From positions 248,001-312,000 of the forward strand of contig JAQVDN010000001.1 of assembly GCA_028698305.1 (NCBI GenBank): 64,000 nt of DNA, read 5' to 3'. The first letter of the stretch is position 1. Each line of letters begins with the position of its first letter. The translations under genes and the position numbers were made by a program. This document shows, piece after piece, positions 7,479 through 43,812 of this stretch. The notes under the pieces are model-generated. The model did not search any database. It worked only from the letters and a program-made list of their open reading frames with translations, and was not told the DNA's origin. Source of the stretch: Candidatus Altimarinota bacterium. Lineage in GTDB: Bacteria > Patescibacteriota > Gracilibacteria > BD1-5 > UBA6164.

Positions 7479-8882
7479 ATGACGAACAATGATTTAAAAA
7501 ATATGAGTATTTCAGATTCTTGGGGTTTCCAAGATGAGGTTTTATATTCAAATGAAATATTAAAATGAATAAATGAAGAAGTTGTTAGACAGATTTCAGC
7601 TTGAAACAATGAGCCAGAATGGATGCTAGAATTTAGAATTAAAGCATTAAAGATATTTTTAGAGAAAGATATGCCAAAATGGTGACCAGATTTGTCTAAA
7701 CTAAATTTAGATGATATTTATTATTATGCTAAACCAGAGTGAGCTTGAGCAAAAAAAACTTGGGATGAAGTACCTGAAAATATTAAAAATACTTTTGATA
7801 GATTGGGGATACCAGAAGCTGAAAAAAAATCTCTTGCTTGAGTTTGAGCACAATATGATAGCGAAGTTGTCTATCATTCTTTAAAACAAGAATTAGTTGA
7901 TGCTTGAGTTATATTTGATGATACATCTGTTGCTGTAAACAAATATCCAGATTTAGTTAAAAAATATTTTTCAAAAGCTATTCCAATAAGTGATCATAAA
8001 TTTGCATCTTTGCATTATGCCGTTTGGTCAGGATGAACTTTTATGTACATTCCAGCTTGAGTTAAGTTAAAAGAACCACTTCAATCTTATTTTAGGATGA
8101 ACAAAAAAAGTGGATGACAATTTGAACACACTATAATTATAGTAGAAGATGAAGCAGAAGCCCATTATATAGAATGATGTTCTGCACCAAAATATGATGA
8201 AAATAGTTTGCATGCTGGTTGAGTTGAAATCTTTGTCTGAAAAAACGCAAAAATGAGATATAGTTCAGTTGAAAATTGGAGTGTTGATACTTACAATTTA
8301 AATACAAAAAGAGCTATAGTTCAGGAAAATGCTTATATGGAATGGGTGGGTTGAAATATGTGAAGTTGAGTAACTATGCTTTATCCATGTAGTGTATTAG
8401 TTTGAGATAATTCTAAAACTGATATGTTAGGTCTTGCTTTTGCAAACAAAGGTCAAAATCAAGATGTTTGAGCAAAAGTTATTCATATCTGAAAAAATAC
8501 AACTTCAAATATAGTTTCAAAATCACTAAGCAAATGAGGTTGAATAAGTACTTATAGATGACTTGTAGATATAAAACCAAGTGCAACTTGATCAGTTTCA
8601 AAGATAGATTGTGATGCTCTACTTTTAGATAATTTGTCTGTTTCAGATACTATTCCAAATATAATAGTTTGAAATAGTAGTTCAACTGTTTGACATGAAG
8701 CAAGTGCTTGAAAGATAAATGATGATTATTTATTTTACCTAAGAAGTAGGTGAATAAGTGAAGATGAAGCAAAGGCTATGATCGTAAATGGGTTTATTTC
8801 TGGAGTAGTAAAAGAATTACCACTTGAATATGCTAGTGAAATGAATGTTTTGATTTCAATGGAATTTGAAGGAGCTTTTTAG
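7479..8882 (+). CDS. sufB: Fe-S scaffold protein SufB
   Basis: A 467-residue SufB, the scaffold on which clusters are built with SufC and SufD. It has the family's N-terminal helical part, then the beta-helix core: WSGGTFMYIPAGV, AHYIEGCSAP (near residue 230) and the C-terminal [25 protein letters not shown] and YLRSRGISEDEA. Length matches the family. Many glycines are TGA. The normal order is broken after this gene by a small minus-strand cassette before the carrier gene. Confidence 0.96.
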
Positions 8883-8892
8883 GTAAAGAGAA

Positions 8893-8912
8893 AGCCGGGC
8901 TTCAGCCCGGCT
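8893..8912 (-). terminator. GC-rich terminator of the foreign-looking cassette
   Basis: A perfect GC-rich hairpin, AGCCGGGC-TTCA-GCCCGGCT. The T-rich stretch TTTCTCTTT follows it in the minus direction, so it terminates the minus-strand gene that ends at 8916. Native terminators here are A/T stems with A/T loops; this composition stands out. Confidence 0.7.
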
Positions 8913-8915
8913 GGT

Positions 8916-9083
8916 TCATGAATTCCACCATTTTCTTATAAGAAGAAAAAAACCTATCATATGGAATTGGGAGATAAAAAGTAGTACTAACTGAAGTAAT
9001 ATCCCGGTTCCAGGAATCATAGTTATTTCAAGTGTCTTTAATGACACAATAAGCAAACTAGTTGCAAAAAATAAATTAAGCAT
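8916..9083 (-). CDS. Small two-TM protein in a cassette with a TGA stop
   Basis: A 55-residue hydrophobic protein with two likely membrane spans (LNLFFATSLLIVSL and LLQLVLLFISQF) and a basic Trp-rich end (IRKWWNS). The ATG at 9083 is chosen because AAGGA sits 5-6 bases upstream; an upstream ATG at 9116 lacks this. The frame has no internal TGA, and its only sensible stop is TGA at 8916-8918, four bases before a GC-rich terminator. Under code 25 that TGA would be read as Gly, adding about 33 residues antisense to sufB. I do not know the family. It looks imported from a UGA=stop organism. Confidence 0.5.
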   Translation of the reverse strand: MLNLFFATSLLIVSLKTLEITMIPGTGILLQLVLLFISQFHMIGFFLLIRKWWNS

Positions 9084-9187
9084 GGTTATTCCTTTTCTCA
9101 CAACTTCCCACAACAATTAATCAAGAATTGACTAACCGGGGGAAATTTAAAGTAATAAATTTGTACATAAATAATCTAAAAAGTCAA

Positions 9188-9583
9188 ATGAAATTAGATA
9201 AAAATACAGTACTTGATTTAATAAATAGAAAAGTTGAAAAAATACTTGTTTATTTTTATGATGCTTGATGTTCTGGTACAAAAGTAGATATTAAAGAAGA
9301 TTTTATTGTAGATGATAGTTTAGAAAAACTTGAATTGAGTAGTAGTCCTTTTTTTGTTTATGTAGAGAAAAAAGATAAGAATAAATTTAAAAATTCTATT
9401 ATAACAAAAACAATTACTGCTGACCATACTTGAAAAGAAAAGATTCGTTATATATTTAATAATGAACAAATAAAGGATAGATGTGGTTGTGGAAGTAGTT
9501 TTAGTTTTGATAAAAAAACACCAAAATTTGATTTAAGTAAACTTAAAGATTTTAAAAATAATTTAAAAAATAATGATAATTAA
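9188..9583 (+). CDS. A-type iron-sulfur carrier (HesB/IscA/SufA-like)
   Basis: A 131-residue A-type carrier that receives Fe-S clusters from SufBCD and passes them to apoproteins. The three ligand cysteines are present: one in DAGCSGTKV near residue 28 and two in RCGCGSSFSF near residue 100. The C-terminal tail of ~25 charged residues is longer than usual. Its end overlaps the start of the next gene by 11 bases, indicating translational coupling. Confidence 0.88.
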
Positions 9584-43783: not shown

Positions 43784-43812
43784 AAAACCACGCCCTTGGG
43801 CGTGGTTTTTTT
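43784..43812. terminator. GC-rich hairpin terminator between the 41-aa gene and the second cassette
   Basis: AAAACCACGCCC-TT-GGGCGTGGTTTT followed by a T run. The GC-rich stem is unlike native terminators here and resembles that of the cassette at 8893. It can act in both directions. Confidence 0.75.

Follow-up and report, generated by a model that had tools for sequence, protein, structure and literature searches.

A standard-code expression unit in the genome of a code-25 symbiont and units of like design that may be read by the host

A short gene that ends in TGA lies between sufB and a gene for an A-type carrier in the window, the stretch of 64,000 nucleotides analysed here, while the surrounding genome reads UGA as glycine. 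This raises the question of the code in which the gene is written, and of the ribosomes by which it may be read.

A complete expression unit between sufB and the A-type carrier gene

The carrier of the unit is a code-25 symbiont of the Gracilibacteria/Absconditabacteria type. Its SufB has 28 in-frame TGA codons, TGA makes up about 72% of the glycine codons on the contigs examined, and no RF2 was found above the family cut-off in 25 genomes, which agrees with the initial annotation of UGA as glycine. Across 566 pairs of native orthologues the TGA share of glycine had a median of 0.75. Pairs with zero TGA, besides the units described below, were only ribosomal proteins, an RRM protein and a TrpR-like protein (TGA-free examples are S18, L17, S20 and the RRM protein). 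The TrpR-like gene was rejected as a standard-code unit; it is the terminal part of a native one.

The minus-strand ORF annotated in the gap, with a Shine-Dalgarno (SD) sequence and no internal TGA, was confirmed at 9083-8916. It runs from ATG through 55 codons to a TGA at 8918-8916, is inverted relative to both plus-strand neighbours, and has three glycine codons, all GGN. A GC-rich terminator does follow the TGA, yet the measured spacing was 3 bases instead of the 4 given at first; the terminator-like hairpin, AGCCGGGC-TTCA-GCCCGGCT at 8893-8912, has a free energy of -16.7 kcal/mol. Similarly, the cassette is present, but its annotated span of 8893-9120 has to be extended to about 9187 to 8883, promoter through terminator, once the promoter is added. 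The 55-aa element is monocistronic and forms a complete expression unit in the standard code, with the sigma-70 promoter, SD, all-GGN ORF, stop and GC-rich terminator that mark the unit class. With a TGA stop before a terminator, no TGA among three glycine codons and an SD it is not an ordinary code-25 gene of this genome.

None of 2000 dinucleotide shuffles gave an ORF of 55 codons or more together with SD and terminator. The G+C content of the element is raised, as annotated (0.36 versus 0.23 in the window), and equally GC-rich 230-bp windows amount to 1.4%. The contig is 379 kb long and native genes flank the element on both sides; all genomes used, this one included, are MAGs. Judged from its sequence, the product is probably a hydrophobic small protein with one or two membrane segments.

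The 5' leader contains an imperfect inverted repeat (Table 1). Leader hairpins of the CTTYC..GAAAG type resemble one another in three units at the sufB site, those of the window (9098-9146), G034 and G027, and are possibly a transfer or regulatory signal. By eye the leader hairpin is suggestive of attC; no R-box match was seen.

Searches of relatives, 84,980 species genomes, phages, plasmids and viral contigs, which are sensitive only to fairly close relatives and weak for short membrane proteins, turned up neither a donor nor a homologue of the 55-aa unit. A weak match of 33% identity to the protein in G017 sits among long overlapping frames and was dismissed as chance, as were all DNA matches to the element in relatives. 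The element has no further DNA copy in the genome that carries it, and searches of the window for RNA families, tRNA and tmRNA were negative. Pfam, PHROGs and NCBIfam returned nothing credible for the 55-aa protein and the other sufB-site proteins.

Table 1. Positions of the units and of the genes that border the sufB spot; coordinates are those of the window.
Feature	Position	Strand	Identified by
Native sufB, code 25, 28 in-frame TGA; one hot-spot border	7479..8882	plus	code-25 reading
GC-rich intrinsic terminator AGCCGGGC-TGAA-GCCCGGCT (minus strand), then TTTCTCTTT	8883..8912	minus	hairpin search
ORF of 55 codons, MLNLFFATSLLIVSLKTLEITMIPGTGILLQLVLLFISQFHMIGFFLLIRKWWNS, stop TGA	8916..9083	minus	ORF reading and Gly codon count
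SD AAGGA, 6 bases before ATG	9090..9094	minus	sequence
Imperfect inverted repeat in 5' leader (CCCC..CAATT..AATTG..GGGG)	9098..9146	minus	by eye, no statistics
Sigma-70-like promoter TTGACT-16 bp-TACAAA	9160..9187	minus	promoter search of units
Native A-type carrier (sufA/iscA-like), code 25; other hot-spot border	9188..9583	plus	code-25 reading
GC-rich terminator of 97-aa gene, AAAACCACGCCCAAGGGCGTGGTTTT	43784..43809	minus	hairpin search
97-aa gene, 5 GGN / 0 TGA, stop TAA	43830..44123	minus	scan and orthologue comparison
Promoter of 97-aa gene, TTGACTTTTTATATTTTTAATATATAAAAA	44159..44188	minus	promoter search
81-aa unit of G012	sufB spot	minus	positional search
67-aa unit of G016	sufB spot	minus	positional search
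60-aa unit of G014, stop TGA	sufB spot	minus	positional search
77-aa unit of G033	sufB spot	minus	positional search
111-aa unit of G034	sufB spot	minus	positional search
101-aa unit of G027, stop TGA	sufB spot	minus	positional search
102-aa unit of G024	sufB spot	minus	positional search

Units at the sufB spot and their signals

In four genomes of the same genus (G001, G002, G003 and G005) the sufB stop and the ATG of the A-type carrier are 12-48 bp apart with no unit in between. The unit occupies one of five same-genus sufB loci and, because the sister species are without it, is a lineage-specific insertion as had been suspected. Seven other genomes of the family, from six other genera, carry unrelated minus-strand units of like design at the same spot. 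These units were found by position and not by SD, and an SD was present in all eight. The complete set of eight unrelated units from eight genomes and seven genera has 40 GGN and 0 TGA codons inside the ORFs (log10 P about -15.6, with the TGA share in SufB of those genomes as the null), and TGA is the stop in three of them (the window gene, G014 and G027). In the remaining genomes the spot is empty or holds native inserts. Downstream of sufB in G007, GC-rich CCCCTCCTAGCCTCCCCCTAGTAAGGGGAGGG repeats form a long array that surrounds a code-25 ORF resembling, by eye, a DUF559-type endonuclease; in G021 the same spot is taken by a plus-strand code-25 pair that looks by eye like a HicB/HicA toxin-antitoxin.

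The signals of native genes are of another kind. Any SD 4-mer occurs in 3 of 513, and their leaders are A/T-rich. The 3' end of the 16S rRNA (contig C17, position 195378) reads ..GGACUAUCUCCUUA, with UCUCCUU in place of ACCUCCUU, i.e. a changed anti-SD. The changed anti-SD and the scarcity of native SDs are in line with the listing of SR1 among SD-scarce organisms without CCUCC (PMC10783764). Since AGGAG can still pair with the changed anti-SD, expression of the units in the symbiont is also possible, which counts against the explanation favoured below. A promoter of the form TTGAC-N16/18-TA was present in 23 of 24 units with 2.0 expected; its occurrence in some native genes (49 of 256) counts against that explanation, too.

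Standard-code families conserved in the genus

A scan for SD, code-11 ORF and terminator was conducted over about 1.1 Mb of the own genome (G000) and 1.15 Mb of G005. On the contig of the window it yielded the 55-aa gene and genes of 97, 56 (stop TGA), 89 and 45 aa (stop TGA). Matches elsewhere were a 120-aa gene, a 248-aa CDP-alcohol phosphatidyltransferase (PF01066, E 1e-20) and others; G005 has a glucosaminidase with an N-terminal hydrophobic signal (PF01832, E 1.5e-17). A 108-aa match on contig C13 of G000 was left out of the count as a repeat-derived frame. Because the scan outside sufB required an SD, independent evidence for the SD comes only from the sufB set and from orthologues found by protein; both carry it.

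Four contigs of the bin (C1, C2, C5 and C9) have a G+C content of 0.55-0.65 versus 0.23 and are likely foreign to it. Two others, C16 and C7, have a G+C of about 0.30 and large genes without TGA, and a TraC-like ATPase has 49 GGN and 0 TGA codons. These contigs of the bin are in the standard code, and one bears a conjugation-type gene; they may stem from the host or a plasmid.

Four families, of 97, 89, 120 and 248 aa, are conserved in the genus. Their orthologues have 67-93% identity, common flanks where compared and pN/pS values of 0.11-0.43; synonymous swaps occurred among GGN codons and none led to TGA. The flanks of the 97-aa gene agree among genus members, its orthologues in four sister genomes have a common promoter, and the terminator stem shows compensating changes. 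All glycines of this family are GGN in five genomes, and the stop codons, at a single position in five species, are TAA in the window and TAA, TGA, TGA and TAG in the sisters. The 120-aa family (92-93% identity) has TAA three times and TGA once at one position. In the 248-aa family the stop is TGA in G001, G003, G008 and G019 and TAA in G000, G002, G005 and G026; the stops fall within three codons in close relatives, and TGA and TAA differ even between G026 and G008 of the same genus. Relatives of this CDP-alcohol phosphatidyltransferase across the family use almost exclusively GGN, with one TGA in G023 and three in the distant match from G011. The 89-aa family keeps GGN and has only TAA stops. 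In sum, TGA is the stop in 5 of 17 members of the conserved families versus TGA at the stop position of the partner in 1 of 806 native comparisons, and an aligned GGN faces TGA in the orthologue in 36-43% of native cases versus 0 of 23 in the units. Homologues that keep the extension past the TGA, which had been named initially as a refutation, were not seen.

In the alignments of the conserved members UGA is shown to be equivalent to UAA and UAG at the stop, glycine is never UGA, and the signals are unlike those of native genes. The restriction of glycine to GGN, the frequency of TGA stops, the missing RF2 and the presence of SDs in units but not in native genes together indicate that UGA is a stop for the unit genes. 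The earlier view that the TGA was intended as a stop and the DNA is in the standard code is thus supported, both by the features of the unit and by the conserved families. On the sequence evidence it is selection, not recent arrival, that holds the conserved units in the standard code. The 55-aa gene has no orthologue, and the evidence for selection comes from the conserved families.

Origin of the units and the ribosomes that read them

The initial annotation proposed a recent uptake from an organism where UGA is a stop. A transfer of this kind from a standard-code bacterium, not yet recoded, would make the TGA a fossil stop and the gene maybe useless or read through. The higher G+C, the standard-code signals and the absence from the sister species fit it, and for the 55-aa gene alone it is possible and would be sufficient. 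As a general explanation it is unlikely, and the initial interpretation as a whole is supported only in part. No donor emerged from the searches, the conserved units with like features and the repeated occurrence of unrelated units of one design at one spot would remain unexplained, and recent arrival fails for the conserved units because their orthologues are old residents that still have 0 TGA for glycine and TGA among their stops. If the units were mobile or phage-moron-like genes that shuttle often between the symbiont and bacteria or phages with the standard code, this could also keep them in that code. Gene turnover at the sufB hot spot, the moron-like monocistronic design with own promoter and terminator, and the existence of code-11-compatible phages targeted by spacers of code-25 CPR bacteria (PMC10746230) would suit such traffic. 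However, the conserved flanks of the 97-aa gene do not, the tested units had no match among plasmids and viral contigs and only PHROGs hits with E > 0.02, and the prophages of these hosts reportedly use code 25 (PMC10746230), so that we consider shuttling rather improbable.

That the units are ordinary, strongly expressed symbiont genes which avoid UGA for translational reasons is already disfavoured. TGA-free genes are indeed found among highly expressed native genes, which also speaks against our own explanation; some ribosomal protein pairs are without TGA, and EF-Tu and S-layer genes have few. Yet even EF-Tu retains 11 TGA among 41 glycine codons, and TGA stops and SDs, both nearly absent from native genes, would not be accounted for, which makes UGA avoidance very unlikely. 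We give next to no credence to a translation of UGA as glycine in the symbiont. Code 25 and the missing RF2 speak for it, and the read-through of about 33 residues antisense to sufB noted initially was reproduced (33 residues, 88 aa in all, to 8817). But the tail would cross the unit's own terminator hairpin and sufB, and in the conserved families, where sisters have TAA or TAG at the homologous position, such a tail is not part of the protein.

On balance we favor the view that the units form a class which selection, where they are conserved, keeps in the standard code, and that ribosomes using this code, most likely the host's own, mainly read them. If the sequence comparisons are read correctly, a non-symbiont ribosome must translate the unit genes at least part of the time. 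These ribosomes would be SD-using, and the DNA (or mRNA) of the units would first pass into the bacterial host, possibly via the type IV secretion apparatus of the symbiont. Coupling-protein-like genes are present in G000 and a VirB4-like gene in G005. The patescibacterial T4SS derives from conjugation machinery, and published examples are mostly without relaxases (PMC12102498). Absconditabacteria in culture live on other bacteria and prey on them, and a dependence on hosts is inferred for Gracilibacteria (PMC11452946, PMC13059738). From the 55-aa gene the host would make a small membrane protein.

Host expression after transfer appears to be the simplest reading. We tentatively suggest that the genome may be "bilingual": the recoded episymbiont would keep certain genes in the code and the expression grammar of its host and pass them on to it, and only there would their UGA stops and SDs function the way they are written. 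This gene set would comprise small membrane proteins, the CDP-alcohol phosphatidyltransferase, the secreted glucosaminidase (in the sister species) and small basic proteins.

In Agrobacterium T-DNA, genes carried by one organism have the expression signals of another where they act. The units would likewise bear the signals of the recipient and not of the carrier, provided that the role of the host is as we infer; unlike in T-DNA, these signals consist of code, SD and terminator, and a bacterium is the presumed recipient. Phage morons are single genes with own promoter, terminator and differing G+C between unrelated genes, as is the 55-aa unit, which differs in its location outside a prophage, in the sufB/A-type carrier gap, in its conserved class members and in its standard code within a recoded genome. 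Integron gene cassettes and CALINs consist of small unrelated single genes that sit at one spot in one orientation and mostly match no family, and so do the sufB-site units; an integron gene cassette, however, is promoterless, whereas the 55-aa unit has its own promoter and terminator. Liu et al. 2023 (PMC10746230) described code-11-compatible phages of code-25 CPR bacteria and read them as keeping a wider host range. Like the units these are standard-code genes without in-frame TGA tied to code-25 bacteria, but they are phages and not chromosomal genes, and all prophages there were alternatively coded.

Gene calling in code 25 extends or misses genes of this kind. If host expression is wrong, a selected standard-code gene set in an RF2-less genome still needs explaining. 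If it is right, code-25 symbionts would have a built-in reporter of the reading site, since UGA is glycine in the symbiont and a stop in the host, and genes that hold the host meaning over long evolution would be a sign of nucleic acids passing from the symbiont into its host bacterium. The units would then also make up a list of candidates for factors that act on the host, in a phylum where such action is little understood.
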